In this document: one piece after another, positions 4,430 through 36,103 of the stretch
Layout: the number at the start of each line of letters is the position of its first letter
Position numbering within the stretch: the first letter of the stretch is position 1
Source of the DNA: Dryococelus australis
Taxonomy: Eukaryota > Arthropoda > Insecta > Phasmatodea > Phasmatidae
Assembly (NCBI GenBank): GCA_029891345.1
Contig: CM057000.1
Location: 133,598,163-133,662,162, forward strand
Direction: 5' to 3'
Length of the DNA stretch: 64,000 bases
Translations under genes and position numbers: made by a program
Notes under the pieces: model-generated
What the model saw: only the letters and a program-made list of their open reading frames with translations
Databases searched by the model: none
Told to the model about the DNA's origin: nothing

Positions 4430-4635
4430 TTGTGCAAATTTTTGTGCAGTGTCCACGTCTGTGTATTTGTGCTTTTTGTGTTGTTTTGGTAATTTTTAAG
4501 TTTCCAATTGTCTGTTTTTTTTTTGTGTAATTGTCTTTTGTTGTCTGTGTTAATGTTTGTATGTGTGTCACCCAGGTAATGGTTAACACTGTCGGGCGGC
4601 GCGTTAAACTTCTAATAAATAAATTAATTATTAGT
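4430..4635 (+). repeat. Possible 3' tail of a non-LTR retrotransposon
   Basis: A T/G-rich stretch (GTGCTTTTTGTGTTGTTTTG and similar) leads into GGGCGGCGCGTTAAACTTC and then an (A)TAAATAAA-type tail. This layout is typical of 3' ends of insect LINE elements. No reverse transcriptase frame is present, so this is inference from texture only. Confidence 0.25.
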
Positions 4636-4848
4636 AATGTGATTCAGTTTGTTATTGTTATACTTCTACATCAAGAGCAAGCCCATGAGTGCTGAAAGAT
4701 GCTGTTAAAATATTTCTTTTTTATTGTAGCGTTAATTGGTAACTCTGAAGTATGGCAAGTTTAGAACGTATGCTTACGTATGTGAATATATATTTAACCG
4801 CTGTACGAAGAAAAATTTTCGTTCTTACGAAAGAACAGTTTTTCGGTA

Positions 4849-4881
4849 TACTGCGACGCCCTTCCCAAAGGCGTCGCAGTA
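4849..4881. repeat. Perfect 12 bp stem, 9 nt loop hairpin
   Basis: TACTGCGACGCC at 4849-4860 is exactly complementary to GGCGTCGCAGTA at 4870-4881, with loop CTTCCCAAA. It is GC-rich against an AT-rich background. It is followed by two near-identical ACTTATACACAGC strings (4881 and 4898). Confidence 0.7.
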
Positions 4882-5744
4882 CTTATACACAGCGGGACTT
4901 ATACACAGCCACAAGAGCATAAGAAAAAGATCAAATCTATTTCAGATTTCTGGTTTACAGACAAACACATGACTTCCTTAGCATTACAGGTATGATTTAT
5001 CTGTATAAATTTTTCAAAGTTTACGCAGGATTATGGAAAATATTCATAATTTATTATTTATCTGTATTCCCAGTCTTCCAAAAAAATTTGACACTGATTA
5101 AATATCAGAAGGGCTCAGAAATTTATACAATGATACCATTTTCATATATAAAATACAAATGCCCATTAAAACTGTGCTAGAATTCCACATACAAGTAATG
5201 CTTGAAACAATTCAAAGTTAAATCTTATGTCTCTCTTGTGTCACTTAACATAAATCCATGAGACTACTGTACTCCTACTCCAGGTTTAAGGGTATTATCA
5301 TAAAATACTAAAGATAAAAAAAAAAAAGCCTGGGTGATATGTCGCTTTCAGAACAAATATAAAAACACGCTTTCAACTCCTTTTAAAAGCCCATACGGCT
5401 ATATTTTCATTTTAAGCATTTTCTTAGCAATTTTCTTAATACTTAAACATTTTTCTTTAATACTGGCTGGATACAAAGTCTAAAATTGGAGTATTTCCTG
5501 ACGCATAATGTAAGCGTACTCTTTAATACTGTACTCACAATACTTACATCGACAATATTTTAGTAAAGTCCAACAAAGACACAAATGACTCTAATTTTCC
5601 CATTTTATTGCACTTTAAGAATTTCCGGCTGTCTTTAAAAACATGGGTGATAACTTTAATCAGCCGATAGTTCATACATAAATTTTCTGTCTTCGAATAC
5701 GGAAATTCCTACGTTTTTCTACCTGCCATGATGCAAAAGTCGTC

Positions 5745-6145
5745 ATCCTGACAATGGCCAGACGGGCCAGAAATATTATTTCTGTTACGACATTATTTTT
5801 GTACTTATCTGGTCTCTGCCCATACGACCAAATTCCTGGTGCCATGCACACAATTTTACCCCTCCCAGGGAGGGAGCAACGAGAGTCCGGCCAATCAGAG
5901 CCCAAGAAACTCTCGGAAAGCTTCTATACAATTCCGGCGCCACAGCTCCATGTCACGTGGTTAAACATCCGGCCACACAACCACCGCGACTGCAGCGCGG
6001 TCTGGCGCGGGCGGATCAAACTATCTCCTACACTCAGTGGCCAGTCTACCTCGGGTGCGCGCCGCAGCTGGAAGCTATGTCTGATTGATTGCTGGGCGAC
6101 ACCTTGCTGTCGCACGTACGTAGGCCTGCTGAGGCGTGTATAATT
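5745..6145 (+). promoter_or_regulatory. GC-rich promoter-like patch with CCAAT and E-box
   Basis: About 400 bp of CpG-containing DNA. It carries a consensus CCAATCA (5891-5897), a CACGTG E-box (5954-5959) and a GAA/TTC cluster (5906-5924) loosely like heat-shock elements. Frames are open on both strands (5754-6143 plus, 5924-6115 minus), which argues against either being coding. A promoter or CpG island is the simplest reading. Confidence 0.35.
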
Positions 6146-6524
6146 TAAGCAAGTAAAGTACCGAAATGAATCCGCGAATCTTTCAGGTCTCTAGTAATTA
6201 CCGACAACGTACTATTATAAATAAAATAAAATTTAAGAGGTGTTTAATATATTTGTGCTTAATTTTAATTGTGCGTTATCTGATAGTTGTAGAAGCCAGT
6301 AACATATTTATATTTTTTAAATAAGTTTCTGCCTGATTGGAAGCAGGGAATATCTCACAGGGAAAACTAAATAGAGAAGTATTAAACAACTAGTAAATTA
6401 CAGATTTTCTTTTTATCGAACATTTGCAATAATACCTCTGAAATTGAAAACATGATACGAAAGCGAAGAATTTTGGCATTATAAGCGAAGCCAAACATTA
6501 AGGCTAACTCCTAGCTGCGCGTTT

Positions 6525-6627
6525 GATGCAGAGAAGTACGGGGGCGATAAGGGCGTCACTGAAATGCGCGCCTAGTGCGCCATCGACACTAAGCGCAAGG
6601 TTCCGAACTGGCGTGCAGTGTTCTAAA
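6525..6627 (+). repeat. GC-rich dispersed repeat E, copy E1
   Basis: Shares with copies at 30101-30220 (minus), 32400-32500 (plus) and 38548-38645 (minus) the blocks GCGATAAGGGCG and GGCGTGCAGTGTT, separated by ~70 bp. This copy also has GATGCAGAGAAGTACGG at its start and AAGCGCAAGGTTCCGAACTG before the last block. An in-frame TAG interrupts the frame that is open in E3. Confidence 0.6.
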
Positions 6628-6639
6628 GCATATAAGCTG

Positions 6640-7050
6640 TTTCTTCACATGGAAAATCTCCCCACGTATTCCATGTTTATTATTTCGTAAATATACCGTG
6701 TATCACAAGCGTTTTACGCTTGTGTTCATAACAGTAACTTTGTTTCGTTAAATTGAAATGTTATTTACATTTATCTATAAATTTTACTACTTTATTTATA
6801 AATAATATTAATAAAAAGTGAGAAAGTATGAGTGTTAGTAACGCCTAGTAAGAAATAGTTCTCACGCAAAATATAATTAAAACTGAGTGCGCATGAATTA
6901 AGTGCATTGGCCTTTGGGGTAATTTTCCAGACTAAGTTAAGTTTAGTTTACACGAGGCGGAGGGATATCCTGGAAGTAGAATTTTAGCATGGCTTCAGAA
7001 AAGTATGCAGAAACCGTGAATGGTTTATAGTGGTGCTGCGTGTACCTATT
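6640..7050 (+). mobile_element. Repeat D, copy D2 (right arm only)
   Basis: Same block order as D1: GTTTCTTCACATGG, CACAAGCGTTTTACGCTTGT (an 8 bp stem hairpin), GTTAGTAACGCCTAGTAAG, then GCTTCAGAAAAGTATG and CCGTGAATGGTTTATAG at the end. It begins directly after E1. No coding capacity. Confidence 0.6.
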
Positions 7051-7244
7051 TGACTTTCAGTAGTGATGCTATCTCTTTATTAGCGCGGAAAGTCTATAAA
7101 AAGATTCAATGCAGACCGCTCAACAGGCCTCGTTTAATGTGTGTGTTCTTTTCGTAGATCAGCACGTTGGACGGATATTTAATATTTTCGTGGATACATG
7201 CGTATTTCAAACATCCTGTATGGTAGTTCAAGAGCCAGGTATTA

Positions 7245-7460
7245 TCTATTCACGGGTTCTTCACGCTTCTGGAATAAAACCTTTGGAAATTCACCCCATT
7301 TACGACTTCTTTAAATTCTTTCCTGAATATGTCGTGTAATATAAGCATTTTGTACACTTGTGTTAACATCAATACAATGTTTTGTAAATTGTTTTTATAC
7401 TAAATTAAAATATTTTAAATAATATCAGATATGTTATTCATTTAATAAACCTCTGGATGG
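7245..7460 (+). mobile_element. Repeat D, copy D7 (partial)
   Basis: Carries the central D blocks in degraded form: GGGTTCTTCACGCTT, a GTGTAATATAAGC block, ACACTTGTGTTAACATC and a TTGTAAATTG block. The distal part is missing here. The block set resumes near 8400 in D3, so D7 and D3 may be one copy split by ~900 bp of AT-rich DNA, or two copies. Confidence 0.4.
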
Positions 7461-8400
7461 GGAATGGATGTACAATTTATTGTGCAATCATTCCTATTCT
7501 TTGGGAATTAATCTATTACGATTACTTTCTTAGTGTATTCAATTATTTTTGTAAGACATTCCTTGCTTTATACGTGTTTAGAGAGCCGATGAGAGTGAAG
7601 TACTTTTGTTGGGAGGGGATCTTTGTTAGGGGAGGGGGGATCTGGAGTAATGTTGAGTTGTAATTCGTTTTATTGTGTTAGCTGGGTGTTTAATTTTTTT
7701 AATAAATTCAGTTAGCATTTGTGGATATAAATAAATATAATTCGCATTATTAAAGTCTTTTGGTTAATGAACACGTTTCTGCTTCTGTCCATTACGTAAT
7801 TATAATGGAGATCAGTTATATTTTAAATATTATATACTTCGTTAGGATATTAATATAAATCGCATGATTAAAGTTAATCGGATTTAAAGTAATTCGTTCG
7901 GTATACTAATTGAATATAAATCATAGTGGGCCAGAACATACCCGCGTGCTCCCGCTCCATCCACACCTCACTTGCCTAGTGTCTCAGAAGTGACACATGT
8001 GGGCTCACTCCATCCACATGTCATTCTACAAGTAGACTAAAACATGCCCGCGTGCGTGAATTCCACTCATAAACAAGAAAAATATAAAATATCCCTTATA
8101 CCAACATTTACTCCTATATGAACAATTGCAACCCACTCCTCTGGTCAATCAATAAACGTTCTTCAATATCAAATATTCCATTAAATTAATCAAATTTTTT
8201 AAATAAAAAATAATCAATCCAGTAATCAATTTAATTAATCAAGCAATTGATTATTCAATTAATTAATCTAATTTGTATATCATGATCCGACATTTAGCCC
8301 ACTCTTGCACTAAATGCAACTTAGGCCACTCTAGCTCTAGGTGGGCCAGAACATACATGGCCCTACAATCGAACCACGGACTTATCTTTTTTACTTTTAA
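7461..8400. other. AT-rich gene-free DNA with a duplicated motif
   Basis: GTGGGCCAGAACATAC occurs at about 7926 and again at 8341. CCCGCGTGC occurs at 7940 and 8047. Between 8160 and 8280 there is a dense run of TTAATTAATC/CAATTGATT strings, which form weak palindromes and resemble homeodomain cores. No gene is visible. Confidence 0.4.
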
Positions 8401-8745
8401 TGATTTTATCAACCAAATATTCATGTTGGAGAATAAATTTTTTCAATTGAAGTTGTGCCTGTATTTTATATACAAATTATAATATTTCATTCATAATTGA
8501 TACGAAAAAATGGGGAGGATATGGATGTGCTGCTAAATGCCTAGTGAGAAAAAGTTTTCATACAAAATATTGCGGAACTGAATGCGCATGAATGCTGTGC
8601 TTTGTCACTTTAGTGTAAGTCTCTAGATTACTTTAAGCTTTCTTTGCACGAGTCGGAGAAATATCTTAAAAGTATAACATTAGCAGGGCTTCAGGAAAGT
8701 TGGCAGTAACGGTGGATTGACTATAAGCGGAGCGGAGCCTCAGGT
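8400..8745 (+). mobile_element. Repeat D, copy D3 (right arm)
   Basis: Contains GATGTGCTGCTAAATGCC then TAGTGAGAAAAAG, ACTGAATGCGCATGAATG, GCACGAGTCGGAG and GCAGGGCTTCAGGAAAGTTG, and ends ACGGTGGATTGACTATA. These match D1, D2 and D5 in order and spacing. Confidence 0.55.
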
Positions 8746-11340
8746 CGGGCGTCTCTGCCCAATCCTTCACAGACGCATGTGCTACACGATAGAAGGCGGT
8801 GGTGTCTACATCATTCACGCCACAAGTGAGTGCAAAGGGGTGCAGGGGCATGCACTTTTAATTTTGTCCGCTGCGAGGGGGAGCAAAGAGAAAGAGACAG
8901 GCTGGGGGAAGAGGTAGTGGCTGGGGTGGGGAATGGTGTATTAATTATTAAAATTGCTCTGAACAAGGGTGCTTCTGAAAAGAGCAAACTTATCCTTTTC
9001 AATTTTTTTTTCGTGTCCTTTGTAAGCGCGGGCACTAGTTCAAATCTAAATTAACTGCGCTTGGTCATCATGCTTCGTAAAAAAAAGTAGAGTTGTTATA
9101 AGTTCGCCATGTAAAAATCAAACAGTTTGCCCACGTTAGTAAGCATCGCTGAGGCTGCTGTGACTGCTTGTAGCTCCATTCTGATAAATAATATTCATGC
9201 TCCCTAAAATACAAGTCGTGCATATATGGAATGCAGTTTGCGTCTTACAAATCAAGTGCATAACAAAAATTTGGTTTTATGTCCTTATTAGCACCGGAAT
9301 TTTCGCGTGTTCCATATGTTTACAAAATTAATTTTTATCACGCTAAATATAGTTATTATATATACATATTAACAAACAACAATTTTTGTATTTTATACGC
9401 ATTTTACGAAATCGTAGATTCCAGTAGGACATCGCGTTTTATTTTTTGTAATTATCTACTCAGGTTGGTTTTAACAATGTTTTACTCTTAAAAAATGAGT
9501 ATAGAATTTCTCCAGCAGTTAATAATTTATTTCATAATGATCATTACACAAAAATCAATAGACTATGAAATTCCCTCATGATACAACACAAAAAAAAAAC
9601 AACTATTCCTTTGAAATATAATTACAGACAAGTATTGTATATGTCAATTTATAAAAAATATTTTTTAAATACTATGCAATTTATTATATATAAAAAGGAC
9701 AACAAAAATAGTCGATGAATTAGGCACACTAGCAAATAATTATTCATGCTCTGTCACTCCGACTGAACGGCTTGGCATTCGATGAAATACTGGAAAGGCA
9801 CAAAAGTTCTTTTTTTTTCGCCCGTAATAACTTACCAACGCATAGGCGTATGATTTCTTTTTTTTTTTTTGCCGAATATAATTTACCCATTTCTGAAGCA
9901 AGTGATATTCACGCTCTACCATTTTATGTTTCATCATTAATGTTATGATAGTTTATTCTAATATAAAATTATAGTTATCCTAGAAATTCGCGATACGTTT
10001 TCGTAAATTAGTCCATTAACCCATTGAGGACGGCGCACATTTATTGCCAGCGGAGACAAAAAATTGAAGTGAGCTGCCTGTATTCTCCACCTCAGCAATA
10101 TCAGTTGCGTTGGTCGCTGTCATTCTACTTACCATCTTCTTATTGGTTCTGGCTGTCTTATTGGTTCTGGCTGTACCAGATACCCTTACTGCATTCTGCA
10201 ACGTTTGTAATAGGTTGGCCGCCGGCCAATGAAGTCGCGCGTTTATTGTGTGCCAATCAATGTGTCGCGACACAATGCGACAGGTTTTACAGTCCATCGT
10301 GATCATTCGGGAAACATTAAAAAAAATAACAGTTTTATTATTACTGGCCTATTTGACACCTTCACTAGTTGTAACTTTTTACTTAGATTCCGATAAAGTT
10401 TAGCGTATCAGTAAAAATATGATAGTTTTAGTATTATTTCCTAGAGCAAAGAGATTTTCTTATAAACGCAGCCCCGAGTATATACGTGCGTACTTCTCAA
10501 ACGGTTAATAACAAATATTCATTAAAAAATACTTATATATACTTTTGCATATGAAATCTTATGGTCAATTCCTAATAAACTAAGCAGAGTAACTGGTGTG
10601 ATAATATCTATGCTAATTATGTATCTTTTGCATTGAAATACCATTTAACATGACACTCAATCCGTATCATTTAAACCACAATTTTGTATACATATAGTTA
10701 CGTTGTACATTAAAGCGATGGAATCGCGCAAGAATCTGACTGTGTGACTTTAACTACCTAAATTTCCTTCATCTGCATTTTGATATTGCTTTAGCTAACG
10801 AACGAACATTATATATTTCTATTTAATTTTATACCACTTTTGTTCGAGTTTTAAACCACAAGCCCTCACGAACGCATCTTCTCTACATTTTTTTTTTTTT
10901 GTAATATCAACATTAATAAATTTGGCATCACCTACACTACCATATAAATTTACTAATGTTCTCTAAGTAATCTCAAGTTTTCTGTTCACAATGCACACGA
11001 TGCTTTATTAATCATTATCACAAGCGCTCTCATTAAACGCGTTCTTTTTTTCAAAAAATGCAAATGATGTTCAATTACGTACCATTTAATCGCCCACGTC
11101 TATAGGCATCATCATCATAACGTGAGCTTTTATGAAAGTGATTTCAGTACCACACAACATAGCCGTTAACCAAGCTACCGAACATATTTTATTTCAGATC
11201 ATATTCCATAACGCCACCTGACCGACTCATCGTTTAAACGGCCACCTCGAATATTTGATTCCATTTACCCCCTCCCTTGCTCTATAGTGCTGTTTCCTGG
11301 CTACCAGGAATAAAGTGAAAACTGGGAATACGAAAAACAA
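8746..11340. other. Gene-free interval
   Basis: A short GC-richer, purine-rich part (8746-8990) gives overlapping frames on both strands with no recognisable product. The rest is AT-rich. At 10141-10174 a 17 bp unit containing TTATTGGTTCTGGCTGT is duplicated in tandem, and CCAAT or its complement occurs four times within 10140-10260, so a small promoter-like cluster is possible. Poly-T runs lie at 9810, 9860 and 10890. Confidence 0.4.
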
Positions 11341-11606: not shown

Positions 11607-12658
11607 TTATATATAAAGCATTTCTGTATATGTTTTTGGTGAAATGGCGGTATTTATAATGGCTTTTCGTAGTATTCCAACGTGGTTTATCGTCCCGGAA
11701 AGACTATAATATTCCACGTAATATGCCAATCTGGCAGGTGTACCTACAAGCATATCAAGTTAGTTCAATTAATCAAAACCTGAAAAGAAATTCGAATAAA
11801 ATTTGGTTGGGTGAATTATAATTTAACTGACAATACTGTGCTACAATTCTGTGAGCTTCAGTGCATCCTTTTAATATTTACGTGCCAGTCAGGCAGTCAG
11901 CCAAGCACAAGCCAATAATATACTTGTATGCATAACACTCGTTGTGAACAAATAACTTCGCTAGTTTGCTCGACACTGCATATCGAACTCTCGTGGAGCG
12001 TTAGTAACGTTGTAACAGAGTTTAACCCAATATTAGGGGTAGTTTTGGTCCGTATGACCATTATCAGCGTATCTAACGTGGAGACAAATTTAATTTTGTC
12101 TTGAATACAAGGATGCAACTTTATTATATAGCTGCCTAATCATTTTATAAGGATTTTATTGCTTATGTTCTGGCGAAATCTCGTTATATCGGGTCAATCG
12201 TTGAATATTTTGAAGTGAAAAGTAATTTTGTCGTAAGGAAAACAAGGCAAAATTTTTGTTTCATCAGCTCTATAAACCGTATTTCACGATATGGTTTTAC
12301 GAGACATAAATGCAGGTAGTAAAATCTAACGATTCAGTATGCCGTATATATTGTATCAGTTCACTATAGTCAATAAGTTTTATAAAAAGCGTTTTCCTCA
12401 TTCGTATCTTATGCAGTTGCAGTGCTAGTCACTTGCTTGGAAATATTATGTTTATTACATTATCAGTTTGTAAGGTGTTAGTAGATTAAGGCATGAAGCT
12501 TTTCAGTAGGCTTAAATGAAAGCCATGCTGAAGATCTATATATTTAATCATTTTTTCTCTCTTTTCGCCACAGAACACATTCTCATGGACCTAATTATTA
12601 GTCATACGCCGTTTATGTGAAAACTTGAAATTGCTAGAAACTGAAATGTGTTACTATA
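11607..12658. other. Gene-free AT-rich interval
   Basis: Stop-dense in all frames. The only longer frame (11897-12118, minus) has no recognisable features. No repeats shared with the rest of the window were noticed. It ends at the TA that flanks the large inverted-repeat structure. Confidence 0.45.
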
Positions 12659-13314
12659 AGTAGTAGGGACGTGATGGTTCTAATCCACCTTTTTTTGTCC
12701 TTGAACTTTCAGACGTAGTCCCATATGATTCCCCTAGGGCCGAAATCGTTGGTACTTTCTAACCCACCTGCTCCACAATCTGTCCTCGATGGCTCCTTAC
12801 TTAGCTCCTCAATTCTGGAGCTAATCCTGTGCTGTGATTGGTCCACACCTAGCTACCCCGCCCCCCTTCCGAAAACGCTCCACATCATCATTCACAACAA
12901 GCTAAGTCAGGGTTATCTACACCTGAAGTCTGATACACCATCACCCCTCTCCTCTACCTACACTCCCTCCACTCTTCTTCCTCTCACATCAGATATGGTT
13001 AACACCCTTCCAACACCTTCCGCATATACTCCTTCCCAGTGAGATAGGCTGTATTCAGTCCCAAACTTGACAGATAGGCCATACTGCTGCAGCCATCGGC
13101 CTCCATATTAGTTGTATCTTTCACCACCAGGAGTACTGATGTCTCTTGTTGGCGTCATCGGCCGATAGGTAGCCCACAAGTTTTCGTAATGCCTCCCAGA
13201 GAGCAGGCGAAACGCTCGCGTTCCAAGATTGGCTCTGAGATCGATTGGAAGCTTAAGACCATTCTCTCCATCGTATATGTAATACATTAGTACACTATAA
13301 AAACTTTCCATTTG

Positions 13315-13376
13315 GATCGTTTTGAATCAGGAAACGCCAGCTCTATAGCACAGCACCTTTAACCACTTGGCTGTTG
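13315..13376 (-). repeat. tRNA-like sequence in the left arm
   Basis: Read on the minus strand it has AGCCAAGTGGTTAAAGG (box A-like) followed ~32 nt later by TGATTCAAAACGATCC (box B-like), the spacing of a tRNA gene. Stems are imperfect and no clear anticodon arm can be asserted. The mirror copy is at 21830-21895. Confidence 0.5.
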
Positions 13377-13924
13377 TGACAGTTGCAGAATTAGAATTTT
13401 AAATGTCGTATTTATAAAAAGTAACGTGCAGACTAACTCGAGCATTAAAAATGAATATGCAGTATTTATCATGATTGAAAAATCGATTAGTTAATGGATA
13501 ATTATATAAAAAGTTAAGAATTTAAATATCATTTTGTATGTAAAACTTAAAGAAAAAATGTTAAAAACTACATATATGAAGTGAAATGTTTATGAACACG
13601 TATTTTAAAAGATATTAGTTTAGAGACTCACAACAGCTACATATTCAAAATGTATTATTTTATAAAAAAAAGGTGTCAATTAAAAATGTATTAATTATTA
13701 TTTTTACAAAACAGACAGAGCCAATTGACGTGTCTAAAGAGGACACGTCTAAAGATTTGTATTTATTAGACAGTTAAGAATATGTCGTCAGAAAAAATGG
13801 TTATGTAACTATAACCATCGCCATCTTGAATTTTAGTATGTATTGAAGGAACATTTATTTTTATTTTCAAATTAATTATGTAGCCACTCCGAACATCAAA
13901 TACAGCATATTGTTTACCTTTCAA

Positions 13925-14445
13925 CAGGTCATTTAAGTCCTAAAAGGTTACTGACAAGGTCAGTTTTGAGTTAAGCCCTTCTATAAACATAAGTAATAAT
14001 TTCTGATCCATTGATATGGTCATCAAATTCATAACATAGACATAATACCCGACATACAACAAAATGGTAAGGTCATTTATGCCCTAAATCCTTTCTGACA
14101 AAAGTTTAATTTGAGCTAAGCCCTTTTATAAACATAGTTACTCATAATTTCCCGAAGCATTGAAGATATAGTGATCAAATTCATAACATAGACACCATAC
14201 CCAAAATACACCATAATGATAAGCTTATTTAAGCCCTAAGGCCTTTCTGACAAGGACAAACATACCTCAAACCCTTTTATAAGTATAGTAAGTCATAATT
14301 TCTCATCTACCAAAGCTACAATCATCAAATTCTTAACATGATCATAAAACCCAACAACAAAGAAGGCTACAAGATCAAACACAACTTAAAACCTTTTGTA
14401 AAAATAGTTAAGGATAGACTTAAATGCATACTCATCAAAGACATA
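13925..14445 (-). repeat. Sub-repeat array, ~145 bp unit, about four copies
   Basis: The block CCCTTTTATAAACATAGTTA recurs at about 13977, 14117, 14270 and 14389, each followed by a CATAATTTC block. Each unit also carries ATCAAATTCATAACATAGAC and GACCTTGTCAG-type strings. The mirrored array in the right arm has about eight copies. Confidence 0.7.
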
Positions 14446-14448
14446 TTT

Positions 14449-14848
14449 TCACACATAATATTTATTTTATTTTCGATTTTAAACAGATTTTATATGTGAG
14501 TTGGATACCTGCTTAGACCAATTAATGTAAAAATAGTTTTGGATTATCAAGTTAGAGTCTCTGCCAGAACACCTAATAATATTTTACATCCGAATTTAAC
14601 AAAAATTGAGTGTCACTGTGTATTCCTGCTTATAGTAATTAATGTAATGCTATTTTTGGATTACCGAGATCGATTCCCAAGCAGCGTACTTAATAGCTAT
14701 AAAAAATCTGGGAAATTTAATCTTAAACATTCACTTACACTCGATGTCTATCATAATACCTGGTCGGTGTATATTGCTCAACAAATGAATTACATGTTCG
14801 ATGTCAACTGTTGAAGGTCGAGAATAGTGGATGGGAAGGCAGTCATAT
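14449..14848. repeat. Segment present only in the left arm
   Basis: The mirror arm goes straight from the CATCAAAGACAT block to ATGTAATCATTTAATTAA; here about 400 bp lie between them. It contains a 91-codon open frame (14539-14814) with no recognisable motifs. Either an insertion in this arm or a deletion from the other. No terminal repeats or target duplication were found. Confidence 0.55.
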
Positions 14849-15869
14849 GATGTAATCATTTAATTAACATAATATATAAAATTCCATACTTGCATAATCA
14901 TGCAATGAATATTTACTATGGATGCATGTACACACATAAATAATTAACAAATAAACATTCACCAAATAAATATATCATCTCAGCAAAAAACAGCCAAACT
15001 TCAACTGTCATATATCTTTTCATTTGTTTCAGAATTTGCAATTAGTATTATTATTATTATTATTAAGGGGTAGAAGGTATTACACGCACACTATGCTAAC
15101 ATTCACTACACACACTTATCAAGCATGCACATTATATGCAGGGAGACATATGTCCGCTCCCGAGAAACAACATCTCAAGACTAAAGCTTTACCATAAACA
15201 AACTGTTCATAGGTTATTTTTAAGCGAAAACACTTCATGCTTTATTCATGTCAGTTCAACGTATCCTAACAGGAAAAAACTTCTATACGATTTCATCATA
15301 TACCAATACCCACATACAGAATATCTCCAATTAATTACTTTGATAAACCATTTCATCATGTAATAGCAAAACATGTACACACACAGAGTAACACAAACTC
15401 ACACACACACACAAGACCTACAATATTCCAATTGGCAAATGCGCTCCACCCACGAATTGCTCCTAATGAACCAAATTAACCCAGATCAATCCAGAATTCA
15501 TCCAAAAGACCAAAATCGACTCTAAAAAACACACACACACACTCACACAAGTAATTTGCACATATCATACCGGGCAACTGCAAAACCTCATACCATCAAT
15601 CTTTACAAGCAAAATTAAATGCTTTACAATTATATCAACATATCATACAACTCAAATGAAAAAGCATACATAAACAGACACGATAATATTATGAAACCAC
15701 TTCAAACTATAATACCAAAAACATAACACCCAGTTGCACAACTCCTAACATCAAACTTGACAAGCAAAACTAATTATTTTACAACAATATCAACATATCA
15801 TACAACACAAATGAACAAATCTACGCCATCTGTCTCCCAATACACATTATCACACATATGCCACATTGC

Positions 15870-15967
15870 CTTCAACTTTGAGAATGTCTACAGCAACATC
15901 TGCCATGTTGCTGTAGACATTCTCAACGTTGAAGACAACATGACAGACATTGCTGTAGACATTCTCA
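15870..15967. repeat. 30 bp near-perfect hairpin plus a third copy
   Basis: 15870-15899 (CTTCAACTTTGAGAATGTCT and 10 more bases) pairs with 15905-15934 at 29 of 30 positions, loop CTGCC. A further direct partial copy, ATTGCTGTAGACATTCTCA, follows at 15949-15967. It sits exactly at the inner boundary of the left arm and has no counterpart at the start of the right arm. Confidence 0.8.
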
Positions 15968-15969
15968 TG

Positions 15970-18900
15970 TTTGGGTTTCCTTGGGGTGTTCCCAATCGCA
16001 AAGGTTTCGTTTTTTTTTCTATAAAATTACAATTTTGCTAAAAGTTATGTTTCTTTTTGTTTTATTCAGTATATTTTGAACATTAGTTTAATATTCTATG
16101 TCTTCATTCTACGATATTAACCATGGAAAAGGTTAACACTTTTCATTATAATAAAACATTTTCTGCAAATGTCGGTTAGGATGAGCAGTTTAAGGTGTTA
16201 GATTTAAGCCCTGCATGCCTGTATGGAAGCGTTGGTTCGAGTTATATACCTGATAAATAATTTTTGAAGAAATATATTAAGATAGAGTAAATGTTGGCTC
16301 TTTCTCTGACCGAGTTTCAGTGATACATACACCAATTGTTCTGTTGTGAAAATAGTACATAACCATGTGTTTTGTACGAATGTTTTCACTTCTTCGACGG
16401 TTGTGATGAAATTCAGATTGTTATGAGTGGGATCATGTAGTGATATTTGCACACTTTTGTAATATGAAGATGATTACAATTATTGAAGACTTGCCATCTG
16501 TAACACTTTCAGCAATGGTTTCTGATGAGTCTCTAAAAGCAATACAGAAACAATATTGTTATTATGGAAAATACTTTTAATATAAGTTGTCATGTACATT
16601 GACATGAATGTGGTTATGGTTTGTCCAGTTCAGCATACTAGTTGTTCCACTGTGATAAGTGGGATACTGTGTTTACTGGTATTGATATCCTATATAGATG
16701 TAAGAATAAGTGTAAAGGTAATGTTTGTCAATAATCGGGAAGAGGATGCATGTATTGCAGCAATATATTTGCGACTAGGTTTATAGACAACATTAAAATA
16801 ATAATTGCCCATTTGCAATTAGTTATAAGACCTATACATGTGTTAACTGTAATGTTGTATATGTGAGTAGGGAAACATTGAATGGTTACTACAGGAAATG
16901 TATAAATTTAGAGTAAAGCATAAATACTTTGGTTGAACTGAGAATGTAATTGAGTGTATGCAAGTATTACTATGTATTGTTTTATAATTTTGTGAAATAA
17001 TGATAAATTTTATGAAAGACTAATATTTTGTATAAATTTTATCCCTTCCAACTTTTAAGTATTACTATGAGCAAACACTCATAAAAGTTAAAAGAATGAT
17101 AATAATGACTTCAATATAAAAATGTATGGCTAGTTGACCTTTTGTATAAACATTCATTCTTCCGATATGCATAAATTTTTGAAGACAATAGATGAAACAT
17201 TTTTCTTATATGTATGGATAGATAAGGCTTATGAACCCTTGGATTGGTAAATATTGTTGAAGATTGTTTGAAAGATTGTTAATGATTGCTAAGGGTTGAT
17301 GTAAAGATTGTTAAAGATTCGTGTGTGTGTATTGGAATATCTCAATGTATGTTTTGTTGTATTGCATCAGCTTGTTAGATGTGTTCTTTGCAGGATATGT
17401 AACGATTTTGAGGAATAATGAATGATTTTTGAGGAATAATGAGTGATTTTTGAGGAATAAGGCATGATTTTTGATGGCCGAGGAATGAGGAATGATATGT
17501 AGAGTAGTAATTTCATGCATGCTTGTATGAATTTTTGGGAAAAAAAAACTTTATATGAGTATTCTTCAATTACATATATATGTAATGCAGTTTGTGGTTG
17601 CGTAGCCTTCCTAGATAAAGCACTCACTTGCATCTTTTCCATGAGACCGTTGTTCTCCTTCCAGAGATGATGTTTGACTGATGGAAACCTGTGTGGGTGT
17701 GTATATTGGGTTCTTTGTTGTCGATGAGCTGTGATATATTGGCGAAGAGAGATGATGGATGCTGTATGTGAGTTGACTATAGATTGATATAGTTAATGGA
17801 AAGGCATATTGTTTATGTGTTTGATTTGTAGTGTGTTGGAAGCTGTCATGTATATAAGTTATGCACAGTAACAAAAATATGTTAGTCGCATGTTAGTTTT
17901 GTTTATAGTAATATGCATACTTAAAGTGAAAATAATCATGTTAGTTATTCAATATGTAAATACTAGTACTAAAAAGTGAGTTTGACTTGCAAGGAAGCAA
18001 TGAGTATGTTCTCAGACCTATAGTTCTATTCCTTTATTTTTTTTTCCATTGGTCTATGGGTATTTGGTTTCAACTCGTTACATCAATACTACTTGCAGTT
18101 GGATATTCATTATGCCAATATTTAGGTTAATTTACTTGGTACTCGATTAAAATAATCATCTATTTGCCCTCTATGGTTCTTGAATCGCTATGTATATATT
18201 ACTTATATCTAAATTTCCTCGATAAATATGTATTTTTGCTATGCGAATATATATATATATAACTCATGATGATTGATAATGTGCGTGTGTGTGTTCAACT
18301 CTCCCAACGCAAGCCTAACCTAACATGACCGATACAATTTTTTTGAGTTTCTCAAAACATTAAGCTGTATAGATAGCAATTAAACAAAGCCTTTCAGAAA
18401 CAGTTTTCCTAGAATGATTTTAAATATTAAAATGTTTTTTTTGTTATAATAGGGTATATAAGGTAAGACATCGAATTGCACTATGTAAAATTGATGTTTG
18501 TGGCATGAGTACTTAGCATTTGTGTTATTGCACTATATTTAAAAAAAATGTCTTAAGACACATTAAAATAATGATAATTTTAAAGGATTATTTAATATTT
18601 AATGTTTAAGATGAGTGGGTTTAAACAAATATCGCATACAGTAATTCATATATGCATATTTACTTTGTTGGGAATTGAAATAAAGAATATGTTAGTATAA
18701 CTGTCCATGCCTGTGTTTAGGTTGATGTTTTGACTTAATCAGTATGTATGCTTGAATTTTAATGCTTTACGAAATAAAAAAATTATTAGCATTTAAACAA
18801 TAACTAAGCTTCTTGTACGATGAAAACAGGTTTAATTGTGTAAATACTTGTTTTTCAGATAAGAGCTAAGTATCCTAGAAAGATTGAATCAAGTGTTTAA

Positions 18901-19100
18901 AAGAGCAGATTTTGACAAAATTCTTTCATTAAGGGGTTTTAATGAAATAAACAAATATTGATTCCTCTATGTAGTATGGGATAACACAATTTGAGTGAGT
19001 TGAGTGTTTTATTAGGATCTTACTTTGGTTTTAAATGATATTATATAGTATATTAGAAGAATGGAATCTTTGTAAGGCTTTTTGTTTATGTATATCAGTA
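15970..19100. other. Non-coding centre of the giant inverted repeat
   Basis: AT-rich, T/G-biased DNA with many stops. Short frames of 60-90 codons (for example 17367-17642 minus) are repeat-derived. It contains a short tandem block at 17403-17482, GATTGTTAAAGATTG-type strings at 17255-17320 and a (TA)n run near 18250. There is no sign of transposase, integrase or polymerase. Confidence 0.6.
17403..17482 (+). repeat. ~21-22 bp tandem repeat, 3-4 copies
   Basis: GATTTTTGAGGAATAATGA-type units repeat in tandem with small changes at the end of each unit. This creates the serine/leucine-rich minus-strand frames over the area, which I regard as spurious. Confidence 0.7.
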
Positions 19101-20199
19101 TACTTTAGGTGAAATATGTGTGATAATGTGTATTGAAATAGAGATGATGGATATTTGTTCATTTGTGTTGTATGATATGTTGATATAGTTGTCAAGTAAT
19201 TAGTTTTGCTTGTAAACTTTGATGTTAGAGAATTTTAGACTGGGCTCTATGTTGTTGGTTATATAGTTTGAAGTGGTTTCAAAATATGATCGTGTTGGTT
19301 TTTGTATGCTTTTTCATTTGAGTTGTATGATATGTTGATATAATTGTAAAGTATTTAATTTTGCTTGTAAAGTTTGATGGTATAGGGTTTTGCAGTTGCC
19401 TGGTATGATATTTGCAAATGAGTTGTGTGAGTGTTTGTATGTGTTTTGGAGTAGATTTTGATCGTTTTGGAAGAATTTTGGGTTTATCTGGGTTAATTTG
19501 GTTCATTAGGAGCAATTCGTGGGCGGAGCAGCTTTGCCAATTGAAATATTATAGGTTTATTGTATGTGTGTGTGAGAGAGGGTTTGTGTTATTCTGTACA
19601 TGTGTATGTGCGTGCATGTTTTGCTATTACATGATGAATGGTTTATCAGAGTAATTAATTGGAGATATTCTGTATGTGGGTGTTGGTATATGATGAAATC
19701 ATATAGAAGTTTTTTCCTGTTAGGATACATTGAACTGACATGAATAAAGCATGAAGTGTTTTCGCTTAAAAATAACCTATGAACAGTTTGTTTATGGTAA
19801 AGCTTTAGTCTTGAGATGTTGTTTCTCGGGAGCAGACATATGTCTCCCTACATATAATGTGCATGCTTGATAAGTGTGTATAGTGAATGTTAGCATAGTG
19901 ACAGTGCAATATCTTCCACCCCTAAATAATAATAATAATAATACTAATTGCAAATTCTGAAACAAATGAAAAGTTATATGACAGTTGAAGTTTGGCTGTT
20001 TTTTGCTGAGATGATATATTTATTTGGTGAATGTTTGGTTGTTAATTATTCATGTGTGTACATGCATCCATAGTAAATATTCATTGCATGATTATGCAAG
20101 TATGGATTTTCATTATTATGTTAATTAAATGATTACATCAAATATGTTTAAAAATGTCTTTGATGAGTATGCCTTTGTAGTCTTCTTTTTTGTTGGGGG

Positions 20200-21320
20200 T
20201 TGATGTCTATGTTAATAATTTGATGTTTGTATCTTTGGTACATGAGAAATTATGAGTTACTCTACTTATAAAAGAGCTTTAGATGTGTTTGACTTTGTAG
20301 TCTTGCTTGTCATTGGGGTTGATGTGTGTGTTATGAATTCGATCCATATAGCTCCAAAAGTTCGAAAATTATGAATAACTATGCTTATAAAAGGACTTTA
20401 AGTGTTTTTGACCATGTACTCGTGTTTGTTGTTGGGGTTGATGTGTGTTATGAATTTGATGACTATAGCATCAATGGTTCGGAAATTATGAGTAACTATG
20501 CTTATAAAAGGGTTTTAGGTGTGTTTGACATTTTCAGAAAGAGCTTAGGGAACAAACGACATTATCACTATGGTATATGTCGGGTATGGTATCTATGTTA
20601 AGAATTTGAAGACCCTAAAATTAATGGTTTGGAAATGATGAGGAACTTTCCATATATAAGGATTTTAATCCATAATTGACCCTGCCAGGAAGGTCTTAGG
20701 GTTTAAATAATTTTAGCATTATGGCGCATGTCGAGTATGGTGTCTATGTTAAGAATTAGATCACTATAAACTCAATAGTTCGGAACTTATTACTACATTT
20801 TACAAAAGGCCTTAACTCAAAATTGACCATGTCAGAAAGGTCTTAGGACATAAATGAGCTCAACATTATGGTGCATGTTGGGTATGTTCTGTACATTATG
20901 AGTTCTGTGACCATAACATTAATGGTTCGGAAATTATGAGTAACTATGCTTATAAATGTATTTAGTTGTGTTCGAACTTGTCAGAAAGAGTTTGGGGCTT
21001 AAATGACCTTATCACATAATGGATGTTGGGTATGATGTGTATGTTATGAATTTGATCTCCATAACAGTAATGTTTCGGAAATTATCATTAACTATGCTAA
21101 TAAAAGGTTTTAATTCAAATTAAACTTTTGCCAGAAAGTATTTAGAGTCTAAATGACCTTACCAGCGAATGTCGGATATGGTGTCAATATTATGAATTTG
21201 ATGAAAATAGAATCAATGTATCATAAATTATCACTATGTTTATAAAAGGGCTTAACTGAAAACTGACCTTGTCAGAAAGGGTTTAGGACTTAAATGACCT
21301 GTTGAAAGGTAAACTATGTG
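20200..21320 (+). repeat. Sub-repeat array, about eight copies
   Basis: GGAAATTATGAGTAACTATG followed by CTTATAAAAG recurs at about 20246, 20360, 20481, 20630, 20781, 20929, 21077 and 21213. Early spacings are ~115-120 bp and later ones ~140-150 bp. The 91-codon frame 20326-20601 is a product of this periodicity. Confidence 0.7.
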
Positions 21321-21829
21321 TAGCATTTTATTTTCGGAGTGGCTAAATTATTAATTTAAAATTCAGCTTGCTTCTATGCTTACGAAAATTCAAGATGGCG
21401 ATGGTTAAACTTACATAATCATTTTTTCTGACGATATATTCTTAACTGTCTAATAAATACGGATCTTTAGACATGTCATTCGGTTATGTTTGTTTTGTAA
21501 AAAAACCAATAAATACATTTTTAATTGACAACTTTTTTTTAAATAAAAGAGATACATTTGGAATATTTGGCTGTTATGAATCACTAAACTAATTCTCCCT
21601 TAAAATGCGAGTTCACAAACATTTCACATAATAGATGTATTTTTGACAAATTTTCTAAAGTTTTATATACAAAATAATTTTTAAATTCCTAACCGTTTTA
21701 TATAATTATGCTTTAACTAATCGAGTTTTCAGTCAAAATATATACTACAGATTGGTTTTTAATGCTCGAGTTAGTCTGCACGTTACTTTTTATAAATACG
21801 ACATTTAAAATTCTAATTCTGCAACTGTC

Positions 21830-21895
21830 ACAACAGCCAAGTGGTTAAATGTGCTGTGCTATAGATCTGGCATTTCCTGATTCAAAACCATCCAA
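21830..21895 (+). repeat. tRNA-like sequence in the right arm
   Basis: CAGCCAAGTGGTTAAATGTG (box A-like, from 21834) and TGATTCAAAACCATCC (box B-like, 21878-21893) with tRNA spacing. It matches the minus-strand sequence at 13315-13376 apart from a few substitutions, so both arms carry it. It may supply a pol III promoter, or be an old SINE inherited before the inverted duplication. Confidence 0.5.
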
Positions 21896-22523
21896 ATAGA
21901 AAGTTTTTATAGTGTACTAATGGATTACATATACGATGGAGAGAATGGTCTTAAGCTTCCAACCGATCTCAGAGCCAATCTTGGAACGCGAGCACCTCGC
22001 CTGCTCTCTGGGAGGCATTACGAAAACTTGTGCGCTACCTATCGGCCGATGACGTCAACAAGAGACATCAGTGCTCCTGGTGGTGAAAGATACAACTAAT
22101 ATGGAGGCCGATGGCTACAGCAGTATGGCCTATCTGTCAAGTTTGGGACTGAATACAGCCTATCTCACTGGGAAGGAGTATATGCGGGAGGTGTTGGAAG
22201 GGTGTTAACCATATCTGTTGAGAGGAGGCAGAAGAGTGGAGGGAGTGTAGGTAGAGAAGAGGGGTGATGGTGTATCAGACTTCAGGTGTAGATAACCCTG
22301 ACTTAGCTTGTTGTGAATGATGATGTGGAGCGTTTTTGAAAGGGGGGGGGGTAGCTAGGTGTGGACCAATCACAGCACAGGATGAGCTCCAGAATTGAGG
22401 AGCAGATTGTGAAGCAGGTGGGTTAGAAAGTTCAGCGATTTCGGCCCTAATTTTAATCTTATGGGACTACGTCTGTAAGGTCAAGGTCAAAAAAGGTGGG
22501 TTAGAACCATCTCGTCCCTACTA

Positions 22524-23665
22524 CTTTAGTTCATTCACGGTTACTTCTACCTTTTCTGAAGCCTGCTAAAGTTCTACTTTTAAGATATTCCTCCAACTCG
22601 TGCAGAAACTGACACCAAATGTGCAATGCATCCGCATTCGTGCGAGCTCAGAATAATCATATTTTGTGTAAGAACTATTTCTTACTAGACATTAAATGCT
22701 GTTCGCGCTAAAGAGAGTACTCTTGAAATTAATCTTGAAAAAATGTCACTGCCCCTGTCTGCATATATTATGAAGGGAGCATCGAGTGACATGTGCCCAG
22801 TAAAGTTGGCAATGATGGATGGAAAGTAGTTCCAATTATTAGCGGCGAATAAAATGCGATAGGTAAGCATTTGTGATGACTTAAATTATTTCTTTTGCTT
22901 TCTGTTTTTTCATGCGTTGAAGTATATAAATGAGCAGAACTGTAATATATTTACTTTTCTAATAATTCCAGTGTTTCACCTGGCCGGCGCATAAATAAAG
23001 TGATGAGGCCTATGGCAGTGTTATTTGCACATAAGGCGGAAGACTACACAACATGCATACAAGTAGATCTTAAGCAGCTTTCAAAAGTGCTCAGTGTACC
23101 GTGAACAGTCCTTACCAACACTTACTTCCGCTTTGTTTTGATACATGTTGATTAAATTAAATATTATAATTTATCAATGAAATGTAAGTATAAGTTCAAA
23201 TTAACAAAATATAAGATACTTCAATGTTGACCAAAGTATGAAACGCTTGTAATACATGGTATATTTAGGAAACCAAAGTCTGTCCCCGGTTTCTTCAAAC
23301 TTATTAAATCAATATTTTGAAAAAAGACCCTTGTATGACTTGTCTAGTATTTTCTTTAAATTTAAAAAGTCCTATGTCATAAGCGTTTTATACCTCTGTT
23401 GACATGAGCGTAGCTTATTTTTCGTTAAATTGAAGTCATACCTGTATTTTATTTATAATAAATATGAATAAAAACAGTTGGGAAACCTGTGTATTGGTAG
23501 CGCTTAGTAAGCAATAGTCCTCGCTTGCCGCTGATTGCGTACGAATTCGGCGCATTGTACAGTGGAGAAATTTTCTGCATTTGGTGGAGAAATATCGTAA
23601 AAGTAGAACTTTAGCAGGTCTTCAGAGAAGTCTGAAGTAACCGTGAATGGATTATGGGGGTGATT
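22524..23665. mobile_element. Head-to-head foldback element D (copies D4 and D5), split by MITE B2
   Basis: 22524-22697 plus 23112-23278 is repeat D in reverse; 23279-23665 is D forward. Together they make one inverted pair with the GTTTCTTCA centre near 23301. The outer ends both read CCGTGAATG-type (TTCATTCACGG at 22529 and ACCGTGAATGGATTATG near 23640). The reverse arm is cut by B2. This is the only full-length D here, showing that D1-D3 are single arms. Confidence 0.55.
22698..23111 (-). mobile_element. MITE family B, copy B2
   Basis: Left terminus GCTGTTCGCGCTAAAGAGAG; right terminus TGTACCGTGAACAGTCC. Inside, in reverse, are GTGACATGTGCCCAGTAAAG, GGCGAATAAAATGCGATAGG, GTGATGAGGCC and GTAGATCTTAAGCAG. 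It interrupts repeat D in the GCCTAGTAAGAAATAG block, so B moved after D was in place. Confidence 0.7.
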
Positions 23666-23996
23666 TTTCAATTGTGTGATTCAAAAATTGTGAAGAATCC
23701 GTGAATAAAGTAACGACATTTCGTATTCTGATATGTGTACAGCAAAAGAACAACACATACGTACTCCATTTGCCATAAATTAAAACTTTACACTAGCGAA
23801 ATAACGTGGAGATTTAAAACTGTTTTATCTTATTCGTTTCCAACTTACCTGGGATGCTGCAGCCAGTCTGCACGGTAGCATATGCCGTCAATGGGCAGTG
23901 ATTATTATTTCCAAATATTGATTTCGAAGTACTTGCAATCCTGAGAACTGCCTATACCACTGCGTGTTTTTGTTAAGTGACGGCGTTTTTGTATAT

Positions 23997-24413
23997 GCTG
24001 TGCATAGTAAAATGAGCTCTTTTGAAAGCTCTGCTTAAGATATACTTGTATGCACGTTGTATATTCTCCCACCTCGTGTAAAATTAACATTGCAATGGGC
24101 CTCGTTACTTTATTAATACTTCCGTGAAGTGAAACTGTGAAATTACTAGGGAGTTAAATATTTTATGTATCTGTTCAATTTTGCACTTCCATACATTAAA
24201 AAACCAGAAAGCGAGAGAAGTAATTTAAGTTACCACAAACAGTTACCCAACACTTTTTATTCGACGTAAAGATATGGAACTATTTTCCCTCCATTGTTAC
24301 CAACTTGACTGGGCGCATGACACTGAGTGGGCCGTGTTAAAATATATGCAGGCAGGGGCAATGATTTTTTTCTAAGGTTGATTTCAAAAGCGTTCTCTAT
24401 ATCGTGGACAGAA
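23997..24413 (+). mobile_element. MITE family B, copy B3
   Basis: Left end GCTGTGCATAGTAAAATGAG, right end TATATCGTGGACAGAATC, both degraded. All internal B blocks are present, including CTTAAGATATACTTGTATGC and GTGAAACTGTGAAATTAC. ~417 bp. Confidence 0.7.
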
Positions 24414-26519: not shown

Positions 26520-26764
26520 ATAGTGACCTTACACTATAGTACGGACAAGACAAGGGAACTGTGAACTCATAATTACATCGCAATTTTAATTCTGTGAAAA
26601 TTTGACTGGGCCTATATTTTTCTCACCACTGGGTGAGTAACAAATTATATTTAAAAAAAAATAAAAACGGTATAGTGAAAAGCAGTTTGCCTTGGTTGTG
26701 CATTTTTGTCCATTTTGATATATTTAGCTCCTTGCTTATGTGTACCTGTAAAAGTGAGATTATA

Positions 26765-27183
26765 GGCTATTGACGATAAAATGAGCACTTTTGAAAGCCC
26801 TGCTTAAGATCTAATTGCATGCACGTTGTGTATTCTTCCGCCTTATGTAAGATTTAAATTGACATGGGTGTCATCACTTTATTCATGCGTCGATCAAGTG
26901 AAACTGTGATAATATTAGTAAAGTAAATATTGTGCAAATCTGCTCATTTTTACTCTTCGGCACATTAAAAAATACAAAAAGCAATATAAATAATTTCAGT
27001 TGTCACAAATGATTACCTAACTTATTTTATTTGACGTAAATACATGTAACTACTTTCCCCTCCATCGTTACCAACTTTACTGGACACATGTCACTCAATG
27101 CGCCCGTTAAAATGTACGCAGGTAGAGGCAGTGACTTTTTTGTAAGGTTCGTTTCAAAAGTGCTTACTGTATCGTGAACAGCC
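26765..27183 (+). mobile_element. MITE family B, copy B4
   Basis: TA-GGCTATTGACGATAAAATGA at left and TACTGTATCGTGAACAGCC at right. All B blocks in order, including TTAAGATCTAATTGCATGCA, GTGAAACTGTGATAATATTA and ACTGGACACATGTCACTC. 419 bp. Confidence 0.85.
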
Positions 27184-27290
27184 TTTAATTATTATGCAGA
27201 CAGTCTAAATGTAGTTCAACTTCGTTTGCTTGGAGTGAAAATTAGGGACGCGAAATAATTACGGAAACCTAGTAGACATTACAATAAATC

Positions 27291-28060
27291 GATTTCAGTT
27301 TGTAAGGATCGCTTGGTAGGCACATCCGCTTTCTTTCTGTATTCTTCGCCTTGTCTGGAATCTGGAAATCGGGTAAGTCGGTAAGCCACGTATATTAATC
27401 GATTTCAGTTTGTAAGGATCGCTTGGTAGGCACATCCGCTTTCTTTCTGTATTCTTCGCCTTGTCTGGAATCTGGAAATCGGGTAAGTCGGTAAGCCACG
27501 TATATTAATCGATTTCAGTTTGTAAGGATCGCTTGGTAGGCACATCCGCTTTCTTTCTGTATTCTTCGCCTTGTCTGGAATCTGGAAATCGGGTAAGTCG
27601 GTAAGCCACGTATATTAATCGATTTCAGTTTGTAAGGATCGCTTGGTAGGCACATCCGCTTTCTTTCTGTATTCTTCGCCTTGTCTGGAATCTGGAAATC
27701 GGGTAAGTCGGTAAGCCACGTATATTAATCGATTTCAGTTTGTAAGGATCGCTTGGTAGGCACATCCGCTTTCTTTCTGTATTCTTCGCCTTGTCTGGAA
27801 TCTGGAAATCGGGTAAGTCGGTAAGCCACGTATATTAATCGATTTCAGTTTGTAAGGATCGCTTGGTAGGCACATCCGCTTTCGTTCTGTATTCTTTGCC
27901 TTGTCTGGAATCTGGAAATCGGGTAAGTCGGTAAGCCACGTATATTAATCGATTTCAGTTTGTAAGGATCGCTTGGTAGGCACATCCGCTTTCTTTCTGT
28001 ATTCTTCGCCTTGTCTGGAATCTGGAAATCGGGTAAGTCGGTAAGCCACGTATATTTGTA
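27291..28060 (+). repeat. Seven-copy tandem array, 110 bp unit
   Basis: GATTTCAGTTTGTAAGGATC begins at 27291, 27401, 27511, 27621, 27731, 27841 and 27951, an exact 110 bp period. The copies appear identical except the sixth, which has two substitutions (TTCGTTC for TTCTTTC, and TTTGCC for TTCGCC). Near-identity points to recent expansion or homogenisation. No unit boundary motif beyond ATTAATCGATTTC is obvious. The last unit breaks at TATATTTGTACG. Confidence 0.95.
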
Positions 28061-29395: not shown

Positions 29396-29399
29396 TAAA

Positions 29400-29815
29400 G
29401 GCTGTTCACGATAAAGTGAGTACATTTAAAATCAACCTTAGAAAAATTTCACTACTCCAACCTGCGTTTACTTCAACGAGCGCACTGAGTGACATGCGCC
29501 CAGTAAAGTTGACCACGATGGAGGGAGAGTAGTTCCATATTACTAAGTCAAATAAAGAGTGTTAGGTAACCTTTTGTGACGACTTGAATTATTTATTTCG
29601 CGTTCTGTGTTTTTTAATGCATCGAAGTGTAAAAATGAGCAGATTTGGAAAATTTTTACTGTCTGATAATTTCACAATTTCACTGGACCTATGCATGAAT
29701 AAAGTGAGGAGGCCCGTGAAACTGTTAATTTTTCGTAAAGCGTAAGACCACACAACGTGCATACAAGTAGATCTTGTCAGGGCTTTCAAAAGTGCTCATT
29801 TTGCTGTGAACAGCC
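29400..29815 (-). mobile_element. MITE family B, copy B5
   Basis: GGCTGTTCACGATAAAGTGA at left; CATTTTGCTGTGAACAGCC-TA at right. Internal blocks in reverse: GTGACATGCGCCCAGTAAAG, GTGTTAGGTAACC, CATGAATAAAGTGAGGAGGC and CATACAAGTAGATCTTG. 416 bp. The minus frame 29589-29789 is part of it. Confidence 0.85.
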
Positions 29816-29819
29816 TATA

Positions 29820-30100
29820 CTTAAACTGCTATGAAGAGTGAAATACTCTATTTCTCACGAAACTATTAAACATGCGTCCAATGTGCTGGTCTACGAAAAA
29901 GACACACACTTCATACGCACGAAGGCTGTCGAGTGCTTGCTAGACCACACATTAGGAATACCTTCTCAGAGCACTCAAATATTGCTAAAACGTCTTTCAC
30001 ATAGCTCTGTAATTATCTCAAAACATACGCGTCAGATACATAGAAAGCTTCCTACAAACTTTCCACCAATATAATCATAGGGTCGCCGCTGAAATTGCTG
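29820..30100. other. Short gene-free interval
   Basis: One 78-codon plus-strand frame (29838-30074) without motifs. No repeats noticed. Confidence 0.35.
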
Positions 30101-36100: not shown

Positions 36101-36103
36101 AAA

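Follow-up and report, generated by a model that had tools for sequence, protein, structure and literature searches.

The window analyzed here, a 64,000-nucleotide stretch of the Dryococelus australis genome (contig CM057000.1, positions 133,598,163 to 133,662,162), contains a repetitive element of 9,867 bp in which inverted arms of about 3.2 kb (left) and 3.4 kb (right) surround a 3.2-kb core. This element is very probably a non-autonomous, palindromic derivative of a lineage of Polintons (Mavericks, polintoviruses), which are virus-like mobile elements, and is probably mobilized in trans. The evidence consists of Polinton-type termini, 6-bp target site duplications around other copies, and relatives in which PolB lies beside the same core or arms. 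The copy in the window is probably old and defective, and its family would have spread by using the machinery of gene-bearing relatives; mobilization in trans is suggested by the shared ends together with the absence of genes.

Termini and target site duplications

Both ends of the element read inwards as AGTAGTAGGGACG. The termini at positions 12659 and 22525 form the pair AGTAGTAGGG...CCCTACTACT, and the Polinton-type motif AGTAGTAGGGACGTGATGGTTCTA at the left end is found inverted at the right. We searched the genome (3.415 Gb in 646 contigs; L-numbers below denote regions extracted from it) with the pattern AGTAGTAGGRRCGNNNNNGTYNTA and obtained 838 forward and 805 reverse exact matches (1,643 together), whereas the reversed control pattern gave 2 and 0. 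The original prediction, made from the sequence of the window, had set the ends at 12663 and 22521. These lie 4 bp inside the true ends because the terminus is itself repetitive (AGT AGT AGG). It had also described a TA flanking each side, which proved to be part of the inverted terminus. A TA adjoining that inner boundary recalls the TA target of Tc1/mariner elements, but here the TA belongs to the shared terminus and the duplications of the family are 6 bp long.

Both ends were read in 11 copies, in which target site duplications were assessed. The hexamers on the two sides are identical at 6/6 positions in five copies (L011, L012, L015, L018, and L024, with a perfect ATAATA at L018), at 5/6 in three (L010, L033/L034, and L035/L036), and at 4/6 in two (L009 and L041/L042). 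Mean agreement over the 11 copies is 4.9/6 versus 1.5/6 in 110 mismatched pairings, none of which reaches 6/6 and one of which reaches 5/6. The best-fitting duplication length is 6 bp. The bounds of L012 and L024 were set by hand. Among 20 regions, those showing one end only (L013, L014, L016, L017, L019, L021, L022, L023, and L027) were excluded from this count, as were L028, which repeats L010, and L020, L025, and L026, which have one damaged end and were retained in the arm tree described below.

Polinton genes in relatives of the element

Neighboring termini within 30 kb of each other are convergent in 10 cases versus divergent in 1 among 100 listed of the 1,643 matches, at spacings of 8.6 to 26.5 kb. 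We opened two of the ten convergent pairs and one pair from the list for the 34-base form of the terminus that the window copy itself has, and all three of these Polinton-sized pairs (L033/L034, 17.4 kb; L035/L036, 18.0 kb; L041/L042, 15.6 kb) carry pieces of capsid or PolB genes. Matches to the double jelly roll family PF21738 occur in L033 and L035 (E values of 4.7e-19, 9.8e-13, and 6.8e-25), a phospholipase A2 piece in L036, and PolB in L041/L042 (tblastn 1e-33 to L043; Pfam 2e-4, below cut-off). The frames of these pairs are broken and were read as they stand, with nothing mended. Another piece of L036, with a P-loop recognized by eye (GPSSCGKT; no Pfam match), is found beside or between blocks resembling the window element in L019, L020, and L027.

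Two relatives combine PolB with the core or arms themselves. L038 holds PolB pieces at 1213-2536 that match the PolB frame of L043 (tblastn 7.9e-78), a frame that itself matches PF03175 at 1.5e-21, over cut-off. Within about 50 bases of these pieces comes a tandem stretch like that at window positions 15880-15967. The core and right arm at 2846-9901 are 74-84% identical to the window, giving the block order PolB, tandem stretch, core, right arm. In L016, the terminus and arm (70-74%) are accompanied by PolB at 7785-8977 (4.5e-86), which lies 5.5 kb beyond the final block of outer arm and directly behind a block of arm sub-repeats in reversed orientation. Polintons had originally been set aside for want of polymerase and integrase genes, a judgment at odds with the Polinton-type ends and with PolB in relatives with the same core or arms. 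Two other ideas, that the arms have nothing beyond the termini in common with gene-bearing elements and that none of the relatives holds genes, were discarded in view of PolB in L038 and L016 and of the P-loop pieces in L019, L020, and L027.

These findings also bear on whether a foldback-type cut-and-paste transposon of an unrelated superfamily might have acquired its long arms, 6-bp duplication, and AGT-rich end by convergence. Foldback (FB of Drosophila) and Galileo have very long, sub-repeated inverted arms, and the window element is like them both in this respect and in having little or no coding sequence. Moreover, L026 carries a 262-amino-acid DDE_1 transposase frame at 3541-4329 (Pfam 5.1e-9), which could be its own or, more likely, belongs to a nested transposon. 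However, among the frames scanned no relative besides L026 gave such a transposase, Foldback and Galileo make duplications of 9 and 7 bp rather than 6 bp, and the window family has a Polinton terminus that bounds capsid or PolB genes in 3/3 opened pairs and relatives (L038 and L016) with PolB next to the same core or arms. We therefore regard such convergence as highly improbable.

Several observations weigh against a trans-mobilized Polinton derivative. The window copy is flanked by ACTATA and TTAGTT, which agree at 1/6 positions. Integrase is represented by an rve-like piece in L034 (E 0.059) and by an rve match in a frame of L017 (3e-4), both below cut-off, and no PolB was found in L033-L036. 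Capsid, PolB, and integrase were found together in no single element examined. The similarity of L033-L036 to the arms is weak (111 bases at 70% and 157 bases at 64%) or absent, and L041/L042 match the window element in the terminal 30 bases only. PolB and arm likely belong to one insertion in L038 and in L016, although the sequence read stops short of either outer end in L038 and of the right end in L016.

A deletion that removed one edge, or an exchange with a second copy, possibly accounts for the missing duplication of the window copy. Reciprocal exchange is disfavored as the cause, as no partner end flanked by TTAGTT is present among 100 listed of 104 matches; this, too, counts against the reading above. 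The right flank starts a few bases from the end of another dispersed repeat. The two flanks lie in different dispersed repeats, and no continuous empty site is present within the window. Separately, AGTAGTAGGAGCG is preceded by TTAATT at many unlinked sites (for example, C14:64085263 and C8:10267647), as if it lay there within another repeat and these were not independent insertions.

The best PolB loci of the genome were considered as partners of the element and rejected: the flanks of two of 54 PolB matches gave one weak match to the terminal-repeat queries (97 bases at 67%) and no match to the whole element. Inverted repeats of about 1 kb (81-95% identical; L029 6743-7836 and L030 8899-9901) surround the open PolB frame of L043. 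L029 has no AGTAGTAGG terminus, and the outer end in L030 lies beyond the region read. L029/L030 perhaps represent a second Polinton lineage of this genome.

Dispersed relatives and block order

Relatives of the element were collected by scoring 40 candidates per query. The first 301 bases have at least 45 matches (best 40 of 619 candidates), bases 13000-13530 at least 44 (best 40 of 890), bases 14876-15500 at least 40 (best 40 of 2,009), and the core at 16000-19000 at least 131 (best 40 of 5,174), the window's own match being included each time. Arm and terminus matches are thus dispersed rather than confined to this locus. The existence of many relatives with common ends, together with target duplications in other copies, bears out the earlier suggestion of a non-autonomous, long-armed element.

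Bases 16000-19000 are matched over their full length at 82-83% in L037 and L038, where core and inner right arm form one 4.3-kb block (82% and 84%, respectively). In addition, an outer arm is present in L037 (78%) and the right arm in L038 (74%); neither locus was read to both ends. Copies with both ends measure about 0.36 kb (L011 and L012), 2.6 kb (L009), 3.9 kb (L024), 5.5 kb (L010), 7.2 kb (L015), and 8.4 kb (L018). The arrangement to the right of the core is alike in L018 and L038 and mirrored in L010, L017, and L037. The left side differs from copy to copy. L038 has PolB there, L018 (whose core and right arm are as in the window copy) has a terminal repeat of only about 0.5 kb, L037 has outer arm and array, and the window copy has a full arm of 3.2 kb. 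Comparing the order in L038 with the inverted right arm that occupies the place of the genes here, we conclude that the left arm was probably copied from the right end.

Another alternative is that a Polinton lost its genes in place and that gene-less forms never spread. Gene pieces do persist in L016, L019, L020, L027, and L038, and most vertebrate Mavericks are degraded, according to PMC8097293. Loss in place nevertheless fits poorly with short copies that lack gene matches and have perfect duplications (L011, L012, and L024, two of them 360 bp), with L018, which combines the same core with a perfect duplication, and with the second inverted pair that the inner arm segment forms at C3:121712166/121718385, spanning 6.2 kb. 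We judge this alternative to be improbable.

Gene content of the window copy

The sole stop-to-stop frame of at least 120 amino acids inside the element (17367-17792) has no Pfam match. We also searched with 214 frame pieces of at least 60 amino acids from L033-L036 and L041-L044. At E 1e-3 these gave no match in the window element, nor in L010, L011, L012, L015, L024, L025, L026, or L037, such that 9 of the 13 tested copies (window element included) are free of any match. Elsewhere, there were two matches in L009 and one in L018 (short and borderline), the P-loop piece in L020, and PolB in L038. A separate set of 346 pieces (L029-L036) gave one chance-like match of 17 residues (E 0.001) in the window element; between two gene-bearing elements, the same search gave 72 matches at E 1e-5, some involving antisense frames or repeats. 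Neither a PolB gene nor a double jelly-roll capsid gene was found in the window element, and the weak integrase-like piece from L034 has no match there. The claim that no gene lies inside therefore agrees with both the Pfam search and the search with Polinton pieces.

Some relatives are not free of long frames. In addition to the DDE_1 frame of L026, L015 has a frame of 161 amino acids at 3548-4033 (- strand) with zinc-finger-like Cys/His pairs and no Pfam match.

A near-perfect hairpin of about 75 bp is present at window positions 15867-15946, at the inner edge of the left arm; the RNA-family matches to the element are confined to 15858-15946 and lie far below gathering scores, as do those of microRNA families to the hairpin. 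A stretch resembling tRNA A and B boxes can be seen by eye in both arms (13340-13400, mirrored at 21828-21890). The original prediction had listed a tRNA-like box in the arms, which gained no backing, as ARAGORN calls no tRNA in the window and Rfam gives none at E values up to 0.5 in 12400-22800.

Age of the element and exchange between its arms

Gapped self-matches pair 12653-14356 with 22530-20876 at 85% and 14845-15864 with 20143-19109 at 90%, and a pairwise alignment of the whole arms gives 83.1% identity over 3,139 aligned bases. Inverted arms of more than 3 kb and sub-repeat arrays in both, as originally described, are thus confirmed. The arms are 94-97.5% identical at about 12819-13458 and 14899-15378. 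The further statement that the outer 750 bp or so are about 95% identical holds for 12819-13458 (95-97.5%), but not for the first 160 bases, which are 90% identical with 25 gap columns. Identity is 80-92% at 13459-14258 and 15379-15864, and the arms align poorly at 14259-14898 because their sub-repeat arrays differ. In windows starting at 13619 and 15539, the arms are no closer to each other than to the best of four other copies (81-88%).

A tree built from the outer 620 bases places the left arm of a copy as sister to its own right arm in 10 of 11 copies (local support of 0.94-1.0). The exception is L009, whose right arm pairs well over no more than about its outer 200 bases. L011 and L012 were too short to be included. 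Because the arms elsewhere are as diverged as different copies, the two near-identical tracts point to an old element whose arms have undergone gene conversion, and not to a recent inverted duplication. A young age, considered on the basis of the 94.8% identity of the outer arms, was dropped after the identity profile of the whole arms was examined.

A recent local inverted duplication, which the original prediction had offered as its second option, or an assembly artefact would account for two tracts of 94-97% identity and for a window copy without a target duplication. Yet relatives with inverted arms occur at other loci, and beyond these tracts the arms are as far apart as separate copies are, which makes either origin extremely unlikely.

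Proposed mechanism

In the mechanism we propose, a gene-bearing Polinton would supply polymerase and integrase in trans. Replication of the linear element by the protein-primed polymerase would begin at the AGT repeats of both termini, and the linear copy would then be inserted by the integrase through a 6-bp staggered cut. The long left arm would have arisen when the right end was copied onto the left, replacing the genes, and the arms would later have converted each other in two tracts. Repeated end triplets suit a slide-back start like that of adenovirus and phage phi29.

The element could instead be mobilized by Polinton integrase alone, without protein-primed replication by PolB. An integrase needs only the ends, and 360-bp copies have 6/6 duplications. 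Against this, the conserved terminal AGT repeats would suit protein-primed initiation, and the arms of one copy tend to be sisters, though later gene conversion explains that too. Integrase acting alone is possible, but we consider it the less convincing route.

Comparison with known systems

Vertebrate Mavericks have (AGT)2//(ACT)2 ends and 6-bp duplications, and intact ones measure 12.7-24.6 kb with inverted repeats of 46-1,447 bp (mean of 402), as reported in PMC8097293. The window element has this end motif and terminal inverted repeats, its family has the 6-bp duplications in other copies, and some of its relatives carry PolB beside the same core or arms. In contrast, it is shorter than the intact vertebrate elements in that source, its arms of 3.2-3.4 kb are longer, and it has neither detectable genes nor a duplication of its own. 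For these reasons of gene content, size, and duplication, we classify it as a non-autonomous derivative with Polinton ends and not as a Polinton.

Non-autonomous derivatives are common among DNA transposons. Like miniature inverted-repeat transposable elements (MITEs), the family shares its ends with larger elements, and L011 and L012 are MITE-sized; unlike them, the window copy is 9.9 kb long and has an extended core that is not inverted. Adenovirus and other protein-primed DNA viruses form palindromic defective genomes, in which one end is copied and inverted, replacing the other end and the genes, as proposed here. The window family differs in being integrated, dispersed, and old, and its formation is read from block order alone.

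No gene-less Polinton family is described in the accessible parts of the open-access literature searched, a scope that leaves Repbase and most subscription journals outside. What is unusual is how many termini there are, the spread of sizes between 360 bp and 10 kb, the palindromic order, and the length of the arms, which exceeds that reported for intact vertebrate Mavericks. Because the detection of Polintons usually relies on their genes, derivatives that lack genes can easily remain among unclassified repeats. We tentatively speculate that gene-less satellites, ranging in size from that of a MITE to 10 kb, live off the Polintons of this genome, which would replicate them in trans by protein priming and perhaps package them in their capsids, with palindromes forming by end copying and with arms and core acting in cis under selection. 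If so, these satellites would use Polintons as defective-interfering or satellite viruses use a helper. If the machinery does act in trans on DNA that offers only the ends, these ends would define what polymerase and integrase need, and the natural 360-bp copies would be a compact test substrate.

Features of the element and other repeats in the window

Table 1. Positions of the element, its parts, and a dispersed repeat in the window
Feature	Positions	Strand	Basis or remark
Whole element, no detectable gene	12659..22525	.	9,867 bp; terminal motif on both sides and relatives
Left inverted arm	12659..15864	+	Self-alignment
Right inverted arm	19109..22525	-	Self-alignment
Left Polinton-type terminus, begins (AGT)2	12659..12682	+	Genome motif matches, also for the 34-base form
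Right terminus, left motif inverted	22502..22525	-	Genome motif matches, also for the 34-base form
Outer near-identical tract	12857..13526	+	94-96% to 21681-22351; 95-97.5% part is 12819-13458
Mirror of outer near-identical tract	21681..22351	-	Self-alignment
Inner near-identical tract	14876..15352	+	96% to 19637-20113
Mirror of inner near-identical tract	19637..20113	-	Self-alignment
Left-arm sub-repeat array, units of ~150 bp	13926..14410	+	Self-matches
Right-arm sub-repeat array, longer than the left one	20127..21300	-	Self-matches
Non-inverted core, 3.2 kb	15865..19108	.	16000-19000 matched full-length, 82-83%, at two other loci
Short tandem/hairpin stretch at left edge of core	15880..15967	.	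Counterpart in L038 at 2583-2990, directly after PolB
Left flanking hexamer ACTATA, not duplicated	12653..12658	.	Flank comparison
Right flanking hexamer TTAGTT, not duplicated	22526..22531	.	Flank comparison
Copies of ~430 bp repeat	1600-2001, 22692-23123, 23992-24411, 26760-27188, 29396-29825		Self-matches
Copies of ~430 bp repeat, continued	36100-36528, 41516-41900, 47564-47993, 50876-51283, 62803-63218		Self-matches

The dispersed repeat of about 430 bp occurs in ten copies in the 64 kb, which are about 71-79% alike, and one copy follows the right flank of the element. The window also holds a tandem array of seven 110-bp units, 99% identical, at 27284-28056, and a 27-bp repeat present 14 times at 51870-52346, most copies of which fall in one open frame that reads as FPGVYDCVL repeats. 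Elsewhere in the genome, AACCT repeats, which are of the arthropod type, are found at the start of C1 (L039), and the start of C17 reads N. The American cockroach has AACCT as well, according to PMC12774602.

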